Shown here in pieces: positions 17,344 to 40,393 of a DNA stretch of 64,000 nucleotides. A program made the translations under genes and the position numbers. Position 1 is the stretch's first letter; every line of letters starts with the position of its first letter. Origin of the DNA: Ilex aquifolium (lineage: Eukaryota; Streptophyta; Magnoliopsida; Aquifoliales; Aquifoliaceae); the NCBI GenBank assembly GCA_951799425.1, contig OX637409.1:10078960-10142959 (forward strand). The letters run 5' to 3'. The notes under the pieces were generated by a model, which was given only the letters and a program-made list of their open reading frames with translations, was not told the origin of the DNA and ran no database searches.

Positions 17344-18939
17344 TTAGAGCTCGACCTCGAGCTTGAGCTTAGCCTTATGGTTTGTAAAATGTGTGTAATG
17401 CATTGTAATCGTATCGATCTTTAAGTTTATTGAGCTAAGCAGACAATGCTCAAAAAAATATAGGTCAAAGGCACAAGTTGATGTCCAACATAACAGGTAA
17501 AACATTAGATATATGCCCAAAAAAATGGTACAATCGTAATTATTCAAGAACAAATGCATTAATAATAATCTACTATAGCTGTAACAGCCCACTTCTCTGC
17601 TCCCCACTACCCAATCCCACTCTATAGAACCATACTGACAGCTTGAACCAGCTTCAACCCCACCCAACCTACGTCCATTCCACCTTGAAACGACGTCGTA
17701 GTAGTAATACTCTAGTGTCTCCATTAAAAGACTGCTATCAGAATCAGAATATTCCATATTTGTCCTTCCATTTAAATTTACTTCAGCAGCCCCTGTAGAA
17801 TTCAAATATTCCAAACTGGCCCCAAAATTTTCCTCCTCCGTTCTAATCGAATCCAAATATGTCGAACTTGTCCCTTCCCCTTCTTCCTCGCAACAACACA
17901 CATCTGAAACTTCCTCTGTCGCACTGGTCAAACCCCTCACCGCCGTCCATCCATCTGATTCCCAATTTGCCCCTGTCTTCGACACCAATTCCCCAATTCT
18001 CTTTCTCGCTTTATCGTCTAAATTGTCAAAACTATAACAAATTTCCTCATCGTCTTCGTGCGATAGCTCTGAACCGAACCAATCAAGCACGCAACGAGGA
18101 GAAGAATCAGTAATCATGGCGGGTGGGTAAGATATTGATATAAATGGATGCTCTAGCAGCTGATCGCAGCTCCACCTTTCACTTGGGTCTCTTCTCAAAC
18201 ACTTCTCAAGAAAGTCTCGTCCCTGTTCTGAAAGCTGAGTCGGAAACTCCGGCAACTCGTCGGAATATCCAATTCTACACAGCGTGTCCGCTCCCCGGTC
18301 CTCCCAAGCCGGCCGGCCGGTGATCATCTCGATCACCGTGCACCCCAACGACCACACGTCGGACTCTGTCCCCTGGTACTCCCGTCGAATCACCTCCGGC
18401 GCCATCCACAGAGGACTCCCACGTGGTGAAATCACATCCGTCGATTCCGTCGCCGACCCGAAATCGGCGAGCTTGGCGGTGGTGTGTGTGGGTCCCACTA
18501 ATACATTCTTGCCTTTGACGTCGCAATGCACGATGCCCTTGGAGTGAACGTACCCCAGCGCCGACACGATGCACCAGGTGTAGCTCGCCGCAATTCTCTC
18601 GTCCACGTCAGCACCGGAACGTTTCGCGATGTCGGCGAGGGTGCCACCTGGCAAGTACTCTATATGTAAGTTTCGATACGACGTCGTGGGGTACTCACAT
18701 GTGACGTCGTCGCCGAGATACTTCACCACGTAAGGTGAGGAAAGTGATCGGAGAATTCGAATTTCGTTATCCAGAGCCTCAAGCTGAGAAGACAAACACG
18801 AGCTCTGATTAACGGACTTGACGGCGAAAACCTCACCGGCACCGTTCGAGTTCTTGACGGCGAGATTCACAGTTCCGAACGAGCCTCTACCTATACAACT
18901 CCCTCTGACCCAGTTCGAATTCAAGTTCACTTTATCCAT
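17344..18939 (-). CDS. MAPKKK17/18-like Ser/Thr protein kinase
   Basis: Single exon, ATG at 18939, open for 531 codons. The kinase domain spans about residues 8-272: glycine loop IGRGSFGTV (16-24), catalytic Lys in AVKSV (K41), Glu in DNEIRIL (E59), loop HCDVKGKNVL (D140, N145; HCD rather than HRD), DFG (159-161), MAPEVI (179-184), and subdomains IX-XI (SDVWSLGC, DPSERWSCDQLLEHPF). The short N-terminus, intron-less structure and HCDVKGKNVL loop fit the plant MEKK-type MAPKKK17/18/20 clade, linked to abscisic-acid and stress MAPK cascades. The region after the kinase is acidic and Ser-rich and ends in EWDWVVGSREVG. The last ~80 codons (about 17344-17590) are hydrophobic and look like translated 3' UTR, so the native stop may have been lost or may lie just past that motif. 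Confidence 0.9.
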   Translation of the reverse strand: MDKVNLNSNWVRGSCIGRGSFGTVNLAVKNSNGAGEVFAVKSVNQSSCLSSQLEALDNEIRILRSLSSPYVVKYLGDDVTCEYPTTSYRNLHIEYLPGGTLADIAKRSGADVDERIAASYTWCIVSALGYVHSKGIVHCDVKGKNVLVGPTHTTAKLADFGSATESTDVISPRGSPLWMAPEVIRREYQGTESDVWSLGCTVIEMITGRPAWEDRGADTLCRIGYSDELPEFPTQLSEQGRDFLEKCLRRDPSERWSCDQLLEHPFISISYPPAMITDSSPRCVLDWFGSELSHEDDEEICYSFDNLDDKARKRIGELVSKTGANWESDGWTAVRGLTSATEEVSDVCCCEEEGEGTSSTYLDSIRTEEENFGASLEYLNSTGAAEVNLNGRTNMEYSDSDSSLLMETLEYYYYDVVSRWNGRRLGGVEAGSSCQYGSIEWDWVVGSREVGCYSYSRLLLMHLFLNNYDCTIFLGIYLMFYLLCWTSTCAFDLYFFEHCLLSSINLKIDTITMHYTHFTNHKAKLKLEVEL

Positions 18940-20689: not shown

Positions 20690-20827
20690 AATCGATTGTC
20701 ACAATTTGAAATTGAACTTTCTAAAATCTTGTAACTCTAACCCGATCGAATCGTAAAATCCTTAATAGTGCAGTACATTATCGAATTTGGTAGAGAGTCT
20801 CTTTCTAGGACCGTACCTATTCTCTAA

Positions 20828-21262
20828 TATTCTGTTTGGTAGGAAAGATAGAAAGTAAAAGGGATATAATTTCTATCCTCTAATGAAGGAAAGTAGAAAT
20901 GATTTATTTTCCTTCTTTTATATTTGGTAGGATTGATGCAAAATAAAAATGATTGATTTTTTTTTTGTGTTTAGTAAGATGGAAAAAATATTTTTTTTTA
21001 CTATTAATTTTTTATTTTAATTAAATTTTTAATTTTTAATTATAAATACATATTTTATCATTGTATTTATATATACAATTAATGTATACATAATATATGT
21101 ATATATTAAAGGATATATAGATAAATAAGATACATTTCAATAGAAATAATTAGTTTTTCATCTTTCCTTCAAATTTTAGAGGAATTGATTTTGATAAATT
21201 AGAAGGAAAGTTTATCTATCTACTTTTTCATCTTTCCTATTTTTCTTTCTTACTAAACATGA
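20828..21262. mobile_element. MITE-like element in duplication copy 1
   Basis: The left end CTGTTTGGTAGGAAAGATAG and the right end (complement) CATGTTTAGTAAGAAAGA are similar inverted repeats around an AT-rich interior of about 430 bp. The counterpart in copy 2 is at about 27605-28045, so the insertion predates the duplication. Superfamily and target duplication are unresolved. Confidence 0.55.
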
Positions 21263-22524
21263 TGTTTTATCTATCCCTTTAACTTTTTATCCTTCTAATT
21301 TTTTGCCTTTTTATTTTTTCATCATAACAAATAGAGTAAAATTCCCTTTTTGAGCACTCTCCCACTTCATTGAGCTGCCACGGAGGGCCATTATTTAGGT
21401 GGAAGTTAGGATAAGGCTTGTGGCTGTGGTGTTTAATAGGATATTTAATGATTTGAGTTTCGTTTTTTATTTTTTTATTTGTGCCCACTAACCATGAGGA
21501 TGTGCCATTTGTCAACCTGTGAGCAATTTGTACAAGGTATACATGTGTCAATGATTGCAATGTTGCTGGTCCATGATAGTGAAAACCAAATAAGGGGTTC
21601 AGAATGGATAAGTGGGAACAATGCCTTTCAGTACCAGAAAGAGAGAAGGGAGTGATGGTTCTCCACATACACTCTCAGTCTCTGGTCCTATTTAGAAGGA
21701 AATGTCCCAATTTGGTAATGCTTTTGAAGAAGTAATGAAAACTGGGTTTGTACAATTTGAAACCAAAAAAGGTTGTTCTATTTTTTTTGATATAGTCTCT
21801 AAATTTATAACCCCCCTCCAAAAAAAAAAAAAGAAGAAAAAGAAATAATCAGTCAATGCGGCATGGAGAACATAACACAAAGGCAACTTGGCGTTTTGGT
21901 CCTTATATTGTAAAGCTTTTATTTTATGCTGGATTTGGAAAGTGGGATGTTGTGGTGTGGTGGTGGTGGCAGACAAATCTCTACAAGCAAGTGGAAGCTT
22001 AGTTTGTTGGGACAGCAGGGAAGTGCATGTGGGCTTTGTTCGGGTGTCGGAGAGTTTATCAGTAACCAAAAATTTGTATTTTTAGAGGGTTCATATGTTA
22101 AACCGGTGGATCCATCTCACCTATCTAATTAATGGATGAACATGAATCTTGTTTACCTCTACACAAACCCAATTAAAAACATCATGACTACAGGTAAACA
22201 AGATTTACATACGACACAACATCACGAATACAGATAAACACGATGAATACGATACAATACGACACGACATTAATATATTATTACATCACACTAATTTAAT
22301 TTTGCAAAATTATAAATTAATTCAAAATAAACCTAATTTGAGTACCTATTCTATTATATGAGTTGAATGAAAAGTGAATCTCATTTAACATTGGCCTTAT
22401 GATGAATGGCATCCTTAAATTTGATCCAAATAACTTTGCTCTGATTTAATCGAGAACAAAGTAAAGTAAATTTTTTATTTTACATAACTTAGACATTGCA
22501 TAACCCGATAAAACAAGATTCAAT

Positions 22525-23025
22525 GTCAACTCTATGTTTTGTTTGGTACAATGAAAAAAATAGAAATATGAAAAGTTAGAATGATGAAAAATTATAAGGA
22601 TATATAAAACATTATATTTGATAACGAATGATGGAAAAGTGGATGGATTACTTTTCCTTCTAACTCACCAAAATTAATCCCTCCAAAATTGAGAGAAAAA
22701 GTTGATGAAAAGTTAATTCTATTTGTTGAAATGTATGATATTTACCTATGCATCATTTAATATATACATATATTATATTTATCTATTACATATATTATGT
22801 ATACATTAATTTTACGTATAGATATAATAGTAAAATATGCATCTATACTTTTTTCATTCTACCAAACACACAAAAAATCAATCATTCCTACTTTTCATCC
22901 CTCCTACCAAAACACAAAGAAGGAAAGTAAAGATTACTCCCTTGGAAAATAGAAATTATATTATTTTTACTTTTTGTTTTTCTATTTTTTTCATCCACTC
23001 TACCAAACACATCATAGGTATCTAG
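22525..23025. mobile_element. MITE-like element, TGTTTGGTA inverted ends (copy 1)
   Basis: The left end reads CTATGTTTTGTTTGGTAC and the complement of the right end reads CTATGATGTGTTTGGTAG, around about 500 AT-rich bp. The equivalent at about 31975-32460 in copy 2 shows that the insertion is older than the duplication. Its right half is included in the 349-bp direct repeat. Confidence 0.55.
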
Positions 23026-23111
23026 AACGATCAACTTAGATCACAGAGAATGGGGAGCGGAAGCGAGAGTGCGAACGCAAAAACGTCAACATTCAAAAAA
23101 AATTGAGAGCA
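22763..23111 (+). repeat. 349-bp direct repeat, left copy
   Basis: It starts TATACATATATTATATTTATC and ends GAGAGCA, matching 24519-24867 with a constant offset of 1756 bp. A 62-codon open frame inside is identical in both copies, so the duplication is recent. Copy 2 of the larger tandem duplication has only one version (near 32200-32555). This shows the doubling arose with the intervening insertion. Confidence 0.93.
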
Positions 23112-24518
23112 TGTTGTATGCTGTTGTTAGCACGCTTCCATCTTCTTGGCTGATTGACTTCATTCATACGAAGTTCGAGAATGGCTTCCTAGATATGATA
23201 GAATTGGAGGATCTGTTAGAGGATATCGAAAATGACTTAATTTGTTTACGAGCATTAGAAGACGTGGAGGATCAACTGACAAACAATGAACATCAGAACC
23301 TATGAAGCGATACTTTCCAGGTAAATATGTTTTCTCAATTTTTTTATTATTTGAATGTGGATGAATTGAAAAAAATATTTGTATGTTTTTAGAGAATGGA
23401 AAAACTTCTAAATACAAAATTTTTTTTTTACAGGCTGTATTCATTCTTTTGGAAGCTGGTGGAATTTCAAATGGGAAAACTTATTTTTTTGATAGCATTT
23501 GTGAACTTATTTTTATTATATAGATAATTGCATTTGTAGGCTGTTTTTTGTTTGAGATATTAGTTACATGAGTGGATTGAGTTTATAATTATGTTATGTT
23601 ATTGAATTAGATTATGGTAATGGTGATGAATTCTCCAAATATTTTATTATAAATTTGATTTGGTTCTGTCAGTAATTTTTTTTCCTAATATATTTGTATA
23701 TGTGGTGTTGCTTTGAAGAATTTTTTGTTCATTTTTTACGAGTCACGCAGTGCCTTCAGGCACGGGCAAACAAAATGACTTTTGCTATTCGCGGTTGAGA
23801 TCACTTTAAATTTTACTTTAAAGTTAATCTAACGGCCAATATTAACACCCTAAATTAATACGAAAAATAGACTCTTAAGGGTGTGTTTGGATGGAATGAC
23901 TTTTTAAAAGTATTTCTATAAATTATATCTCATAAATACTTTTAAAAAAAAATAATATTTGAAACCGCCCCACCACTACCTCTACCACCACCAACGCCAC
24001 AACCACCACCACCACTGCCACCACCGCCACCGCCACCACCACCACTGCCACCACCGCCACCGCCACCGCCACCACCCCTATCGCCACCATCACCACCACC
24101 ACCATTGCCGTCGTCGCCGCCACCACCATCACCGTCGCCGCCATCGCCACCGCCACCACCACCACCACCGACGCCACCACCACCGTCGCCACCACCGTCA
24201 TCGCCACCACCACTATTGCCGTCGTCGCCACCACCACCACCATCGTCGCCGCCACCACCCCTGCCTTCGCCGCCACCACCACCGCCATCGCCACCACTAC
24301 CATCATCGCCACCGCCGCCGCCACCACCACGGTCATTGCCACCCACCACAACCATCACCGTCTCCTACCACCACCACCTCTCACCCCCACTACAACCGAT
24401 GTTTAAATTCATTTATTTATCCTCTATGTTTGTGATTTGATTTTGGATATGAATACAAATATGTTTATTGTTTATCATTTTTTATTACTCTGTGCCTTTA
24501 GGCACAGGCAATAACTAG
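23112..24518 (+). mobile_element. Chimeric 1407-bp insert with Helitron 3' end, 5'-truncated
   Basis: It lies exactly between the two 349-bp repeats. Parts in order: (a) 23112-23305, a short open stretch ending ...DQLTNNEHQNL, with no recognised domain; (b) a minus-oriented Helitron-like 5' terminus, A|TCTATATAATAAAAATAAG, at 23524; (c) a Helitron-type hairpin AGTGCCTTCAGGCACG near 23748-23763; (d) 23765-24518, the ACC-core Helitron from its conserved left flank to hairpin CTGTGCCTTTAGGCACAG and CTAG|T. The usual 5' end TCTATATAATAAAG of part (d) is missing. Confidence 0.8.
23765..24518 (+). mobile_element. Helitron copy B, ACC core, 5' end missing
   Basis: From AAAATGACTTTTGCTATTCG onward it follows the same left flank as copies C and D (...GGTTGAGATC..., AAGGGTGTGTTTGG...). 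It then has about 380 bp of ACC/GCC/GTC triplets and the family 3' end (CTGTGCC/GGCACAG hairpin, GCAATAACTAG|T). Long Pro- or His-rich and Gly/Val-rich open frames are compositional. Confidence 0.85.
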
Positions 24519-24867
24519 TATACATATATTATATTTATCTATTACATATATTATGTATACATTAATTTTACGTATAGATATAATAGTAAAATATGCATCT
24601 ATACTTTTTTCATTCTACCAAACACACAAAAAATCAATCATTCCTACTTTTCATCCCTCCTACCAAAACACAAAGAAGGAAAGTAAAGATTACTCCCTTG
24701 GAAAATAGAAATTATATTATTTTTACTTTTTGTTTTTCTATTTTTTTCATCCACTCTACCAAACACATCATAGGTATCTAGAACGATCAACTTAGATCAC
24801 AGAGAATGGGGAGCGGAAGCGAGAGTGCGAACGCAAAAACGTCAACATTCAAAAAAAATTGAGAGCA
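24519..24867 (+). repeat. 349-bp direct repeat, right copy
   Basis: Same sequence as 22763-23111. Its left edge is the base directly after the Helitron-type 3' terminus ...AACTAG at 24518; its right edge continues into the ancestral flank GGAACATCATATTATATGC. Confidence 0.93.
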
Positions 24868-25654
24868 GGAACATCATATTATATGCACACTGACAAATAT
24901 TCACCCATAAAAATTTAATATAAAAAAATTAAAATTTCATGAAAAACTATGAGCAAATTATTTAATTTTTAAATATGTTGATTATAAAGTCCTAAAATGG
25001 TAATTATAATTTATAAATATTATTCTAGTTTGATATGTATCTTTAGGTCTGGATTAGTACTTCCCAAATAAAAATTTAAGTAATAATAAGTAAGTATATA
25101 AGTAAGTAAAATCACAAATTAGTCGAATTTGGAAAGTCATCGCGAATTAAAAAATTGAATTCACAAATTTTATAAAATAAGAGTGTGAATTAATAAAGAA
25201 TTCGCTCCCAAAACACGAATTTGCTCGTGGAGCGCGATATCATTAGAAATTTAGTTGAATTATGTGAGTAAGGGATCAACACGAGAAAGGGAAGTTGAGC
25301 CTGACCATCCTATATATTAAGCCTGACAAGCAAGCAAACCACACAGCCACCAACCATACAAGTTGTTTAAGTGTGATCTGACATGATCCTAAATACAGCA
25401 TGCATTATGGTCCAACTGGTCTTCAATTAATCCTCACCTTCCAACATCTCACATCATAATGTTTTTATATCTGTCTTCTTCATTAAAGCAAAATACCCAT
25501 GTCCTCTGTTTCTTAATTAAAAGAAAATAAGGGGAAGGAAAAAAGACCTACAAACATGCTTATATTTTAATTCTATTGTGGATGATACTAGGAAGATCAT
25601 ATCGTCACCATGATTGGTTCCAGTTCTTGACATAGTTGTAAGATGCAACTAACT
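24868..25654. other. Remainder of duplication copy 1, no gene
   Basis: AT-rich DNA collinear with about 32556-33336 in copy 2. No gene, terminal repeats or promoter-like element stand out. Confidence 0.5.
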
Positions 25655-25700
25655 CATCGATTTTCATAATTTGAAATTGAACTTTTTAAAATCTTGTGAC

Positions 25701-27501: not shown

Positions 27502-27604
27502 TTTCTAACTCTAGCATGATCGAATTGCAAATTCCTTAATAGTGTAGTACATTATCAAATTTGGTAGAGAGAGTCTCTTGTTAGAGACTCGTACCCATTC
27601 TTTA

Positions 27605-28045
27605 ATGATTCGTTTGGTAGGATAGATAGAAAAATAAAAAATGCAAGTGATACACTTTCTATCATTTAAGGGAGAAATTTATTTTTCCTACTTTGTGTTT
27701 GGTAAGAGGGATGGAGAGTAAGAATAATTGATTTTTTTTTTTTTTTTGAGTTTGATAAGATGAAAAAATTATTTTTAATTTTAATTTTTAATTTTTTATT
27801 AAAAAAATAAATACATATTTTATCATTATATCTATATATGAAATTAATGTATACTTAATATGTAATTGTTAAATATGATATATGTAGGATATATAGACAA
27901 ATAACATATATTTTAACATACATAAACTTTTCATCTAATTTTCCTCTTCATTTTGGAGGGATTGATTTTGATTAGTTAAAAAGAAAGTTAATCCATCTAA
28001 CTTTTCATATTTCCTATTTTTTTTCTTTATCAAACATAATGTTTT
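27605..28045. mobile_element. MITE-like element in duplication copy 2
   Basis: Counterpart of 20828-21262: left CGTTTGGTAGGATAGATAG, right (complement) ATGTTTGATAAAGAAAAAAA. The interior is AT-rich with no coding potential. Confidence 0.5.
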
Positions 28046-28546
28046 ATTTATTTCTTGAACTTTCTATCCTTTCAAATTTTCATCTTTTTATTTTTTCATT
28101 TGAAGCATAAGTTGCATTTTGTACACTCTCCCACTTCATTGGGCTGCCACGGAGGGCCAGAATTTAGGTTGGAGTTAGGATAAGGCCTGTGGCTGCGGTG
28201 ACAAGTAGCAATTTAATGGGAAATTTAATGATTTGAATTTCTTTTTTTTCTATGCCCCCACTAACCATGAGGATGTGCCATTTGTCAACCTGTGAGCAAT
28301 TTGTACAAGGCATAGATGTGTCAATGAGTGCAATGTTGCTGGTCCATGATAGTGAAAACCAAATAAGGGGTCCAGATTGGATAAGTAGGAACAATGCCTT
28401 TCAGTACCAGAAAGAGAGAAGGGAGTGATGGTTCTCCACATACACTCTCAGTCTCAGGTCCTATTTAGAAGGAAAGGTCCCAATTTGGTAATGCTTTTGA
28501 AGAAGTAATGAAAACTAGGTTTGTACAATTTGAGAACAAAAAAAGT

Positions 28547-30414
28547 TTTTTTTTTTTTTTTTTTATAATATGTTCAAGTTTGTGTCGACTATTTTCTCGA
28601 GTTAAATATTGGCCATCATTTCTAAAACATCAGGATGGCTAACCTTTAAAAAATACGAAAAGTTTTTTAAAAAAAAAGGTTAAACCAAGAAAACATGACA
28701 TAGATGAGTTTTTAATTTTTTGACTCTTTTTATTTATGATGTCTACTTATAACAATTGCACTGTAATAATCTTCTGCTCATGGTTAGGTTACTGAATGCT
28801 TTTAGTTGATTGGTAAGTCACATAATCTATATAATAAAGTATAATATAATTCAAATCCCAAAAAAATAAATAAAATGATTTTTGTTTTTCTCGGTTGAGA
28901 TCTCTTTAACTTTTACTTTAAAGTTAATCCGACAGCTAATATTAACACTCCAAATTTAATAGGAAAAATAGACTTCTAAGGGTGTGTTTAGAGTGATTTT
29001 TTAAAAATATTTTTAATACTTATAACTTCTCATAAGTACTTTAAAAACATATATATATATATTTGGAACCGCCCCACCAGCACCTTTACCACCGCCACCC
29101 CCCACCCCACCGCCATCACCACTACTACCATCGCCACCCCACCACCATCACCACTACCACCGCCACCCCACTAGAACCTTTACAACCGCCACCCCCCGCC
29201 CCACCGCCATCACCACTACTACCACCGCCACCCCACCACCATCACTACCACCGCCACCCCCACCACCGTCACTGCTACCACCACTGTCACCACCTTATCA
29301 CACCCATCGCCCCACCACCATTATCACCACTACCATCACCCCCACTGCCCCACTATCACCACCACCACTACTATCACCACCACCACCACCACTACCCCAC
29401 CCCCACCAACATCACCACTACCACCACCACAGTCGCCGCCACCCCACCACTACCACCTCCACTGCTCCACCACCACCATCCCCACTACCATCACTCCCAC
29501 AACCACCACCACCACCACCACCATCCCCACTACCATCACCCCCACAACCACCACCACCACCACTACTGTCGCACCTTACCACCACCGCCACTGTCGCACC
29601 TCAACCCTAACCACCCCCACTGCCCCACCACCCCCCCATCACTACCACCACCACCATCGTCACCCACCACCGATTGCATCCACCGTCGTCCACTGCCACC
29701 ACCAACTACCATCGTTATCTCATTCTTATATTTATTACTATTACCACCATAATCCAATTATCACAGTCGCCCATCATCGCCACTAGCCACTGTCACTCAT
29801 CCCCACCAAATCAACCACCATCACTTGTCATCACCCACAATTGCCGCCACCTACTGTCACCTATCCTCACCATACCTACCACCACCATCACCGTCGTCAT
29901 TTGACACCACTCATCATACTATATCCTAGAAGTACCCGTCGTCGCCCATCGCTACCATCGTCACTGCCCACCACCACAATCCACCACCGCCACCACTACC
30001 GTCGTCACTCCACCACCACTACTGCTAACCACCATCATCGTCGCCCACCACCACCAACACCCACCACTACTACCACCGTCACTCACGGCTGTCATTACCA
30101 CACATCGTTACCTAAAACCCACCACCACCATCACTGTTGCCACCCACGGCTACCACCACCACCATAGTAGTCGCCACCCACCACAACCATCACCGTCTCC
30201 CACCACCACTACTATCGCTCACCCCCACTACAATCGGTGCTTAAATTCTTCTTTATTTTCTCTATATTTGTGATTTAATTTTAGATGTGACTATAAATAT
30301 ATTTATTATTGACCATTTTTTTTATTACTCTGTGTCTTCAGGCACAGGTAATAACTAGCAATCTTATATCTCATATTCAATAGAGATTAGAGCAAGATTA
30401 CAATAACACAATTA
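28547..30414. mobile_element. Compound insertion in copy 2 containing Helitron C
   Basis: Copy 1 reads GGTTGTTCTATTTTTTTTGATATAGTC (about 21772-21798). In copy 2 the same flanks are separated by about 1.87 kb. Helitron C (28826-30358) accounts for most of it. About 280 bp on the left (with a T20 run) and 56 bp on the right are unexplained and may be an older insertion that received the Helitron. Confidence 0.6.
28826..30358 (+). mobile_element. Helitron copy C, long ACC triplet core (1533 bp)
   Basis: 5' end A|TCTATATAATAAAGT at 28826; 3' end CTGTGTCTTCAGGCACAG (hairpin), GTAATAACTAG at 30358. The base after it is C rather than the expected T. About 1.15 kb of ACC/ATC/GCC triplets fills the middle, more than in copies B or D. 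Long Pro/His/Thr open frames are compositional. No Rep/helicase is present. Confidence 0.85.
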
Positions 30415-31066
30415 TTTTTTGATATAGTCTCGAAATTTATAATTTTTACAATATAAGAAGATTATTGGGATTGATCTATATACTTTAAAATCAATCCAAA
30501 ATCATATTTTGATTAAAAAAAAAGAAGAAAAAAAGATAATCCGTTAATGCGGTATGGAGAACATAACACTAAGGCAACTTGGCGTTTTGGTCCTTATATT
30601 ATTAAGCTTTTATTTTATGTTGGGTTGGGAAAGTGGGATGTTGTGGTGGTGGCGGTGGCGGCAGACAAATCTCTAAGCAAGTGGTTAGTTTGTTGGGACA
30701 GCAGGGAAGTGCATGTGGGCTTTGTTCGGGTGTCGGAGAGTTTATCAGTAACCAAAAATTTGTATTTTTAGAGGGTTTATATGTTAAACTGGTGGATCCA
30801 TCTCACCTATCTAATTAATGGATGAACATGAATCTTTTTTTTTTTTTTGTGATCAAAAACATGAATTTTGTTTACCTCTACACAAACCTAATTAAAAACA
30901 TCACGATTACATGTAAACAAGATTTACATACGACAAAACATCACGAATACGAATAAATACGATACGATACGATACGACACGACACGACATTTATATTATT
31001 ATATCACATTAATTTAATTTTGCACAATTATAAATTAATTGAAAATAAACCTAATTTGAGTACCTA

Positions 31067-31793
31067 TCTATATAATAAAGTAGCTTACAATTCAAATCTC
31101 AAAAGATAAATAAAATGACTTTTGCTATTCGCGGTTGAGATCACTTTAAATTTTACTTTAAAATTAATCTAATGGCTAATATTAACACCCTAAATTTAAT
31201 AAGAAAAATAAGTCTCTAAGGGTGTGTTTGGATTGACTTTTTAAAATTACTTCTATAAATTATTTCTCATAAGTACTTTAAAAAAAATAGTGTTTCAAAC
31301 CGCTCCACCACTACCTTCACCACCACTGCCACCGCCGCCGCTGCCACCTCCACTACCACCGTCGCCATCACTGCCACCGCCACCTCCACCTCCACCACCA
31401 TCGTCGTCGTCGCCACCCCCACCACTACCCACACCCCCGCAACTGCCGCTGTCGTCGTCACCGCCGCCCCCACCACCACCGCCACCACCACCACTGTCAT
31501 CACCATCGCCGCCACCACCGCCATCACCACCACCACCGTCACCACCACCGCCGCCGCCACCACCACCATCGTCGCCGCCACCACCGTCGCCATCACCACC
31601 ACCACGGTCATTGCCACCCACCACAACTATCACTGTCTCCTACCACCACCACCTCTCACCTCCACTACGACCGATGTTTAAATTCATTTATCTATTCTCT
31701 ATGTTTGTGATTTGATTTTGAATATGAATACAAATATGTTTATTATTTACCATTTTTTATTACTCTGTGCCTTCAGGCACAGGCAATAACTAG
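31067..31793 (+). mobile_element. Helitron copy D (727 bp), with empty site in the window
   Basis: 5' A|TCTATATAATAAAGT at 31067; 3' hairpin CTGTGCCTTCAGGCACAG, then GCAATAACTAG|T at 31793. The flanks join exactly to the uninterrupted copy-1 sequence GAGTACCTA^TTCTATTATATG (between 22348 and 22349). That proves insertion between A and T, without target duplication, after the tandem duplication. The core is about 340 bp of ACC/GCC/GTC triplets. Confidence 0.95.
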
Positions 31794-31974
31794 TTCCATT
31801 ATATGAGTTGAATGAAAAGTGAATCTCATTCAATATTGGGCTATGATGAATGGCATCCTTAAATTTGATCCAAATAACTTTGCTCTGATTTAATCGCAAA
31901 CAAAGTAAAGTAAATTTTTTACTTTACATAGCTTAGACATGGCATAACCCGATAAAGCAGGATTCAATGTCAAC

Positions 31975-32460
31975 CCTATGCTTTGTTTGCTACAATGAAA
32001 AAATAAAAAGAGGAAAAGTTAGAATGATGAAAAATTGGAGGAATAGATAAAACATCATATTTGATAAGAAATGATAGAAAAATTGATGAATTACTTTTCC
32101 TTCTAACTTACCAAAATTAACCTTCTAAAATTAGGAGAAAAAATGGATGAAAAGTTAATTATGTTTGTTGAAATGTATCATATTTGCCTATGCACCCTTT
32201 AATATATACATATATTATATTTATCTATTACATATATTATGTATACATTAATTTTATATATAGATACAATAATAAAATATGCATCTATACTTTTTTCATC
32301 CTACCAAGCACAAAAAAAATCAATCATTCATACTTTTCATCCCTGCTACAAAAACACAGAGAATGGAATTAAAGATTACTCCCTTAGAAAATAGAAATTA
32401 TATTATTTTTACTTTTCATCCTTCCATATTTTTATCCAACCTACCAAACACACTGTAGGT
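31975..32460. mobile_element. MITE-like element, TGTTTG inverted ends (copy 2)
   Basis: Counterpart of 22525-23025: left CTATGCTTTGTTTGCTAC, right complement CCTACAGTGTGTTTGGTAGG. No coding potential. Confidence 0.5.
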
Positions 32461-33535
32461 GTCTGGAAGGATCAACCTAGATCACATAGAGTAGGAGCGG
32501 AAGCGAGAGTGAAAACGCAAAAACGTCAACATTCAAAAAAAAATTGAGAGCGGTAGCATCATATTATATGCACACAAAAACATATTCACCCATAAAAATT
32601 TAATATAAATAAAATATAAAAAATGAAAATTTCATGAACAAATATGATAAAATTTATTAATTTTTAAATATGTTGATTATAAAGTCCTAAAATGGTAATT
32701 ATAATTTACAAATATTATTCTAATTTGATATATATCTTTAGGTCTGGATCAGTACTTTCCAAATAAAAATTTAAGTAATAATAAGTAAGTGTATAAGTAA
32801 GTAAAATCATAAATTAGTCGAATTCGTGAATTCATCACGAATTAAAATTTTAAATTCTCAAATTTTATAAAATAAGAATGTGAATTCACGAAGAATTCGC
32901 TCCCAAAATACGAATTTACTCGTGGAGCCTGATAGCATTAGAAATTTAGTTGAATGATGTGATAGCATTAGAAATTTAGTTGAATGATGTGACTAAGGGA
33001 TCAACACCAGAAAGGGAAGTTAGTTGAGTCTGACCATCCTATATATTAAGCCTGACAAGCAAGCAAACCACACAGCCACCAATCATACAAGTTGTTTAAG
33101 TGTGATCTGACATGATCCTAAATACAGCATACATTATGGTCCAACTGGTCTTCAATTAATCCTCACTTTCCAGCATCTCACATCATAATGTCTGTCTTCT
33201 TCGTTAAAGCAAAATACCCATGTCCTCTGTTTCTTAATTAAAAGAAAACAAGGGGAAGGAAAAAAGACCTAGCAAGATCATCTCGTCACCATGATTGGTT
33301 CCAGTTCTTGACATAGTTGTAAGATGCAATTAACTCATCATTTTGAAGTTTTTTTTTTTTTTTCTGCTTTTCTTTTTTGTAAATTCTGGCATGCTAAAGT
33401 CCAATCCAACTCGAAAACCATATCCACATATAAATATCAAGTTACTCACATCGGAAATTCAAATTCCACGGGATTCTATCCACAAATATAAAGTTTATGG
33501 TTGGCTGATATTGATCATCATCATTTAGTTATTGT

Positions 33536-39233: not shown

Positions 39234-39779
39234 ACCCCATGGCGAGCTCTCTATTTCTCTTTGGCTTTTCTCTTTTTTTGTAGGCCATAGGGGACGCAAA
39301 GCCCCGTTTTGATTTGTAATGCAATATTTCATCAATTAATGAAACCTTTCTTCATTTCGTTTGTGTTCAAACTGTGGATGCGATTGATCTCTACGCTGCC
39401 ATTTCTTCTTTATATGTGTTCCTTCGTTTTCTTTTTCGCTTACTGACTGTCCCCGATTCATTTAATCTCTGGAAAAATCGTGCTAAGTGTTGAATCGGCC
39501 CGCCTCGGTCTTTTCCCCCTAGGGGCCGAGATCCACACTTATTACTGCTCAAGGATCATCACTGCTCAAGGATCATACCACCTTATTTCTAGGAAGCGGA
39601 AGTGAAGTTACAACTAGTCAGTAACAGCCTCCAGAAGTAGTATGAAAGAGAAAACTGAGGCAGTAAGGCTTCACGCCGAAACCATAAAAGGAAATTCTCA
39701 ATAGGTGAAAAATGAGCAAACCCTTTAACTGCTAATCGTTACGCTGCCGCCGACATCTCCTCGGGGCCAGGACTGTGAT
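39234..39779. mobile_element. Tat element spacer between extra ORF and tandem repeats
   Basis: Non-coding. It includes the probable 3' UTR of the antisense gene (AATGCAATATTTCATCAATTAATGAAACC near 39320-39348). No domain was seen. Confidence 0.5.
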
Positions 39780-40393
39780 GACTGAGAGCTCGTCTCGTGT
39801 TATGTTTTTGAGGGCGTCGCCTCAAGGGTGAGGTCTTATACCCCTCGGGACCATACCCCTAACGACTGAGAGTTCGTCTCGTGTTGTTTTTGAGAGCGTT
39901 GCCTCAAGGGTGAGGTCTTATACCCCTCGGGACCATGCCCCTAACGACCGAGAGCTCGTCTCGTGTTATGTTTTTGAGAGCGTTGCCTCAAGGGTGAGGT
40001 CTTATACCCCTCGGTACCATGCCCCTAACGACCGAGAGCTCGTCTCGTGTTATGTTTTTGAGAGCGTTGCCTCAAGGGTGAGGTCTTATACCCCTCAGGA
40101 CCATGCCCCTAACGACCGAGAGCTCGTCTCGTGTTATGTTTTTGAGAGCGTTCCCTCAAGGGTGAGGTCTTATACCCCTCGGGACCATGCCCCTAACGAC
40201 CGAGAGCTCGTCTCGTGTTATGTTTTTGAGAGCGTTGCCTCAAGGGTGAGGTCTCATACCCCTCGGGACCATGCCCCTAACGACCGAGAGCTCGTCTTGT
40301 GTTATGTTTTTGAGAGCGTTGCCTCAAGGGTGATGTCTTATACCCCTCGGGACCATGCCCCTAACGACCGAGAGCTTGTCTCGTGTTATAACA
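39780..40393 (+). repeat. 84-bp tandem repeats in the Tat element, about 7 units
   Basis: Units contain GAGAGCTCGTCTCGTGTTAT, TTTTTGAGAGCGTTGCCTCA and TACCCCTCGGGACCATGCCC. Successive units begin at about 39783, 39868, 39951, 40035, 40119, 40203, 40287 and 40371 (84-bp period; unit 2 slightly shorter). Because 84 is a multiple of three, the array keeps a 172-codon frame open, which I regard as an artefact. Arrays in this position are known in Tat/Ogre elements. Confidence 0.95.

Follow-up and report, generated by a model that had tools for sequence, protein, structure and literature searches.

Helitron copies in Ilex aquifolium, besides inserting at scattered sites, appear to land at the 5′ boundary of copies already resident in the genome, in the same orientation, with the result that chains of units grow in the 5′ direction; the probability of this reading is put at roughly 0.82. 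New units within these chains seem to insert precisely at the leading edge of their predecessors. The insertion history within the arrays is well supported, whereas a nick made by the Rep protein as the landing site is something that we infer. The family is represented by an insert, herein termed insert A, within the window (the whole 64 kb stretch of DNA analysed; G000:C19:10078960-10142959), and was followed across 800 Mb of genome. Insert A is itself an ordinary Helitron, and it is only the stacking behaviour that is new.

Insert A is a Helitron whose unoccupied counterpart, an exact empty site, lies in the same window (Table 1). It is 727 bp long, begins with TCTATATAATAAAG, ends with GGCAATAACTAG, and lies in the second copy of a duplication of approximately 5 kb. 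When the flanks from copy 2 are joined without the insert and aligned to copy 1, 1166 of the 1274 letter-to-letter columns (91.5 %) are identical, with 50 further gap columns, 0 of which are at the junction. At that point (the bar marking the junction) copy 2 reads ...TTTGAGTACCTA|TTCCATTATATGAG and copy 1 reads ...TTTGAGTACCTA|TTCTATTATATGAG, which with the insert removed corresponds to GTACCTA|TTCCATT and GTACCTA|TTCTATT, respectively. As both the insert and the right flank begin with T, the left cut is ambiguous by one T and may lie one base rightward; the A|T placement is preferred because it fits the ends of other copies. The alignment therefore bears out an earlier, sequence-only reading, which had claimed a 727 bp insert with an empty counterpart in copy 1, and, save for this single T, its claim that no target bases were duplicated or deleted. 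That both termini are thereby fixed also holds, in that copies B and C of the window stop at the same two ends, with a central tract of different length, and other copies from the genome search finish at the same bases in host flanks that are unlike one another. The 3′ hairpin of insert A has a 7 bp stem and a TTCA loop, ending 11 nt from the 3′ end, and the middle of the element is an imperfect CCN tract.

Table 1. Location within the window of insert A, its empty site, the surrounding duplication and the other family copies
Feature	Description	Position	Strand	Basis
Insert A	non-autonomous Helitron, 727 bp	31067..31793	+	sequence and alignment to empty site
5′ end	TCTATATAATAAAG, common to the family	31067..31080	+	comparison of copies
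CCN tract	imperfect trinucleotide tract; limits approximate, length varies among copies	31303..31668	+	
Hairpin	CTGTGCC-TTCA-GGCACAG, 11 nt before the 3′ end	31765..31782	+	
3′ end	CTAG of insert A	31790..31793	+	
Empty site	CCTA|TTCT in duplicate copy 1	22348..22349	.	
Duplicate copy 1	contains broken copy D	20729..25664	+	
Duplicate copy 2	contains copies A and B	27503..33344	+	
Copy B	older subfamily, 1533 bp; right flank begins with C instead of T	28826..30358	+	
Copy C	older subfamily; 3′ end CTAA	7260..8554	-	
Copy D	first ~41 bases missing, CTAG end intact; left side fused to the hairpin of another unit	23767..24518	+	

Three more members of the family, beyond the insert noted in the earlier reading, lie within the window, namely B, C and the broken copy D. 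The target of copy B reads A|C, an exception to A|T, and the joined flanks of B and C returned no empty site among the examined loci and the window. Copy D is bracketed, together with a gene-like fragment (23112-24518 overall), by a 349 bp direct repeat that is 100 % identical (22763-23111 and 24519-24867) and that is present once in duplicate copy 2. A Helitron should not produce a flanking duplication of 349 bp. The gene-like fragment (23112-23767) has a short open exon-like stretch and terminates at a Helitron hairpin, which in turn is joined to internal sequence of another unit. Elsewhere in the window, repeats with a period of ~84 bp are arrayed in tandem within an open frame (39759-40389), and a 531 aa open frame on the minus strand (17344-18939) carries a domain of the protein kinase type (Pfam PF00069, E 7.7e-59).

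With regard to the genome as a whole, a search with insert A yielded 6449 candidate places, 40 of which were scored to give 90 matches, the stronger of these mostly covering positions 1-727 or 3-727 of the query; insert A belongs to a high-copy non-autonomous family. A set of units was assembled from 67 loci and the window (excluding L001 and L039-L050), with 142 units that are complete and distinct and with host-side ends numbering 63 on the left and 65 on the right. The A|T junction claimed for insert A is supported by this set, as A precedes the element in 59/63 left ends and T follows it in 61/65 right ends. Left ends start with TC in 50 of 63 cases (TA in 6, TT in 6 and AA in 1), and right ends finish with CTAG in 52 of 65 and with CTAA in 6. 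Five canonical features of Helitrons are found: a 5′ TC, a 3′ CTRR, a hairpin 10-12 nt before the 3′ end, A|T insertion without target duplication, and a partner with the same ends that would encode Rep and a PIF1 helicase, the last of these from one element.

This partner was found amongst the Rep-domain matches, which are frequent in the genome (150 scored of 204 candidates), one of them, at C4:1519598, having a family junction 3.9 kb downstream. The corresponding element (C4:1517559-1524034) starts ATA|TCTATATAATAAAGTAGCTTAC, finishes with a hairpin and CTAG, and is 89.6 % identical to insert A over its first 113 bp and 88.9 % over its last 27 bp. A 535 aa open stretch within it matches the Helitron Rep domain (E 3.8e-54) and Helraiser (PDB 7lcc; E 2.6e-139), with its HMH and YIHKY motifs aligning to the HAH and YLFKY of the latter, and separate further open stretches carry PIF1 domains. 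An element with the ends of this family is therefore predicted to encode a Helraiser-like Rep and a PIF1 helicase, the link between such an element and the family being formed by this one example. No family 5′ end was present upstream of four other Rep loci (L081-L084) in the stretches read, and a second junction near a Rep match, on C3 (L088), was discarded as a further case since its upstream unit is a CCN-rich, non-autonomous one. Several other groups of Rep-bearing Helitrons (e.g. L039-L042) have copies that share ~97-99 % identity across 3.5 kb, suggestive of recent activity.

Empty sites were also sought for other copies by joining the host flanks, and are seen for both a single copy and an array. 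The single copy L002 has an empty site in a related repeat (L056), aligned with no gap where the two flanks meet. The three-unit array L019 has empty sites at L071, L030 and window positions 46992-46840, none of them gapped at the junction, and two of the three have small gaps a few columns away; a whole array can therefore occupy one site. These cases derive from 31 junction-spanning alignments, 16 of which (to L052 and L066) were rejected as empty sites because they are family sequence itself, the other 15 being judged singly. Amongst the latter, two alignments for L019 (window 19641-19447 and L014) lack a clean fit, L073 is ungapped at the junction yet a weak match (101/148), three alignments for the dimer L023 are one base off, and four for L003 and one for L056 are gapped. 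As a separate observation, L002 and L056 carry two family insertions at the same place, within four bases, in related copies of another repeat.

The head-to-tail pattern AATAACTAGT-N(0-10)-ATAATAAAGTA occurs 865 times in the genome (430 + 435), compared with 1 occurrence of its reversed control, and in most of these junctions CTAG directly abuts the next 5′ end. For 75 distinct junctions examined, most at loci chosen by the junction pattern itself, the spacing is 0 in 58, of which 45 read TCTATATAAT; a further 11 are two bases shorter and 6 have a four-base spacer. Counting the two commonest intact 5′-end words, 259 stand directly behind AACTAG and 2072 behind A, so that ~11 % of 2331 are stacked. 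In a list chosen only by similarity to insert A, the 56 near-full-length rows (of the 90 matches) include 16 same-strand neighbours at less than 1 kb, 10 of these within 6 bp, and none on the opposite strand, although neighbours are over-represented in this list because candidate places were scored together with their surroundings. Two of the 34 shorter rows, which were omitted from the neighbour count, do adjoin units on the opposite strand, namely C4:20625637-20626181 and, at C12:30599838, a match of 40 bases. In the 68 sequences examined there are no head-to-head or tail-to-tail pairs at less than 40 bp.

The units fall into two subfamilies that differ at 26 of 354 columns, one of 114 units with a mean divergence of 0.067 from its own consensus, and the other of 28 units with 0.120. 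Pairs of neighbours drawn from both subfamilies number 10, at 10 loci, and in 10/10 the less diverged type is on the 5′ side (p=0.002). With the 72 pairs taken together, divergence is lower in the 5′ unit than in its neighbour in 49, higher in 22 and equal in 1 (p=0.0018), with terminal branches giving 44 to 28 (p=0.08). Within a single subfamily the count is 39 to 22 (p=0.04), with a mean difference near 0, indicating a weak age order, and the terminal branches, at 34 to 28, show no significant difference. This order fits growth at the 5′ side, at which each insertion restores host-A|TC, but not at the 3′ side, which offers G|T. The prediction that older ends should be landed on more often was tested on the subfamily ends and was not borne out, those of the older subfamily not being significantly more stacked upon (71/572 versus 188/1759, p=0.25). 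Words at the 3′ end do not separate the subfamilies, and were therefore dropped as markers with which to count the order across the genome.

Insertion of a new copy at the 5′ boundary of a resident would give host-A|TC...CTAG|TC...CTAG|T-host, and every landing would re-create an A|T site at the new 5′ side. As to why this boundary should be chosen, the transposase may nick the 5′ end of a resident as its normal first step, and this nick could then become the target for the circle of another copy. In the pathway proposed for Helraiser, as outlined in the available text, nicking begins at the left end, which once cut remains bound by transposase (PMC5876387). That the transposase-made nick is the preferred landing site, such that Helitrons home to their own 5′ ends, is offered tentatively, its chances being rated a little short of even.

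A resident end might alternatively be hit like any other suitable site, given that the family 5′ end, ATA|TCTATATA, resembles the favourite target, ATA|TNTATATA. ATA indeed forms the three bases before the element in 44/63 host-side left ends, and 21/65 host flanks fit T.TATATA. With a family preference for ATA|T ahead of TATATA-like sequence, and a family 5′ end that reads ATA|TCTATATA, resemblance to the target does contribute. The frequency of stacking, however, is far from that expected of resemblance. On one strand of the 64 kb window ATAT occurs 614 times and ATAT.TATATA 20 times, and by rough arithmetic these densities predict that ~0.15 % of insertions should be at resident ends, compared with the 11 % seen. 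Moreover, the A|T sites that lie 4 or 6 bp within a resident copy from its 5′ end are unused, the exact words for such junctions having 0 and 0 occurrences, and no interior stacking exists in the 68 sequences examined, despite an average of 5.4 ATAT per unit (eight cases were flagged, all of them overlaps of two bases that belong to the class two bases shorter). Plain target mimicry is thus considered an unlikely account of the arrays.

A very improbable source of the arrays is rolling-circle replication, in which the transposase runs on beyond the 3′ end, or a circle whose ends have been joined is copied repeatedly, and a multimer of one template inserts once. Exact CTAG|TC junctions are equal to the circle junction seen with Helraiser (PMC5876387, in the part available), and neighbours resemble each other slightly more than random pairs do: over the end blocks, 72 adjacent pairs have a mean distance of 0.124 and random pairs one of 0.135 (0.0002 by shuffling of partners), with 0.243 and 0.336, respectively, at informative columns. 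In the younger subfamily alone the latter values become 0.204 and 0.235, the excess likeness being partly due to shared subfamily. Most adjacent units do not, however, look like sisters from a single template. The unit closest in sequence is the neighbour in 1/72 pairs, with a median rank for neighbours of 68.5 of 141, and 1/72 pairs is amongst the 47 cherries in a tree of units. No pair (0/72) shares a haplotype, as judged by identity at 18 transversion-informative columns, or has lengths within 3 bp (0/72). With a rate of 0.012 for private transversions in the slow columns, sisters would be identical at informative columns ~65 % of the time, and the share of sisters is therefore bounded at ~6 %, a value that is optimistic if the informative columns evolve faster; a simple mixture of means permits up to 30 %. 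Pairs of mixed subfamily, always in one order, also oppose a multimeric origin. In addition, a small non-autonomous unit, its last bases beyond the stretch read, adjoins the 3′ end of the Rep-bearing element at 0 bp, and neighbours of which one is large and coding and the other small and non-coding cannot be sister units. The test does detect duplicates where they occur, as in L007 (G000:C7:4568784-4572495), where units 1 and 3 differ by 1.7 % and units 2 and 4 by 0.6 %. On these comparisons of sequence we conclude that most junctions are not sister joins, and concatemers are rejected as the main source of arrays by neighbour distances, order, haplotypes and tree.

L007 is a dimer present twice, and local duplication therefore also lengthens arrays; that tandem duplication or unequal crossing-over built the arrays in general after one insertion is, nonetheless, scarcely credible, as other neighbours are not near relatives and the breakpoints would not coincide with element ends. 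The remaining alternative concerns insert A, for which the exact empty site upholds the claim that insertion came after the duplication, unless copy 1 once carried the element and lost it by exact excision; possible somatic excision products have been reported in maize (in the accessible part of PMC2267711), but this is the remotest of the explanations considered, with no footprint in copy 1 and insert A lying 5.1 % from its subfamily consensus, less than the 8.5 % between duplicate flanks and as expected for a later insertion, albeit that rates in element and flanks may differ.

Several known systems resemble parts of this picture, as far as the available portions of their descriptions extend. 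Adjacent Helitrons at maize r1 likewise have a CTAG|TC junction without spacer and neighbours that are unlike, read there as consecutive insertions, although they form one pair with its order left open in that portion, compared with 865 junctions and a consistent order for the Ilex family (PMC2267711). Bat Helitrons, including Helraiser, share the TC and CTAG ends, hairpin terminator, A|T target, Rep with HUH and two tyrosines, and PIF1-type helicase (PMC4778049, PMC5876387), and amongst the bat exemplars the 5′ end of one Helitron abuts the 3′ end of another, with empty-site support (PMC4778049). Arrays are cited in support of rolling circle in the text seen of PMC5876387, which differs in giving no unit phylogeny there. 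For FoHeli of Fusarium and relatives, self-insertion at or near the resident 5′ end has similarly been considered, with one insertion 2 bp upstream and three in tandem in Metarhizium acridum; these elements differ in their non-canonical ends and are single cases, their origin left open in the sections available (PMC5148889). Mothra of rice is also a high-copy non-autonomous plant Helitron with internal repeat blocs, TC and CTAG ends and a hairpin, its mother element being described, in the accessible text, as without RepHel, whereas the Ilex family has a RepHel element with the same ends (PMC4683698). Maize Helitrons preferentially insert near or inside others, as cited in PMC3288121, and an active wheat family makes A|T insertions (PMC13286980), both according to partial texts. 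Amongst the titles and abstract openings covered, none settles the origin of arrays by unit phylogeny.

The choice between rolling circle and repeated insertion for head-to-tail Helitrons has been left open for maize and fungi, on the portions of PMC2267711 and PMC5148889 available. With hundreds of junctions in one genome and subfamilies that order events, the origin of arrays becomes testable by counting. Were the boundary truly a landing site, Helitrons could accumulate without inserting into further host DNA, and could act as seeds of repeat arrays. Should the proposed homing of Helitrons to their own 5′ ends prove true, arrays would be a time-ordered record of insertion, with the youngest unit at the 5′ side, and those cited as evidence for rolling-circle concatemers would need re-examination.
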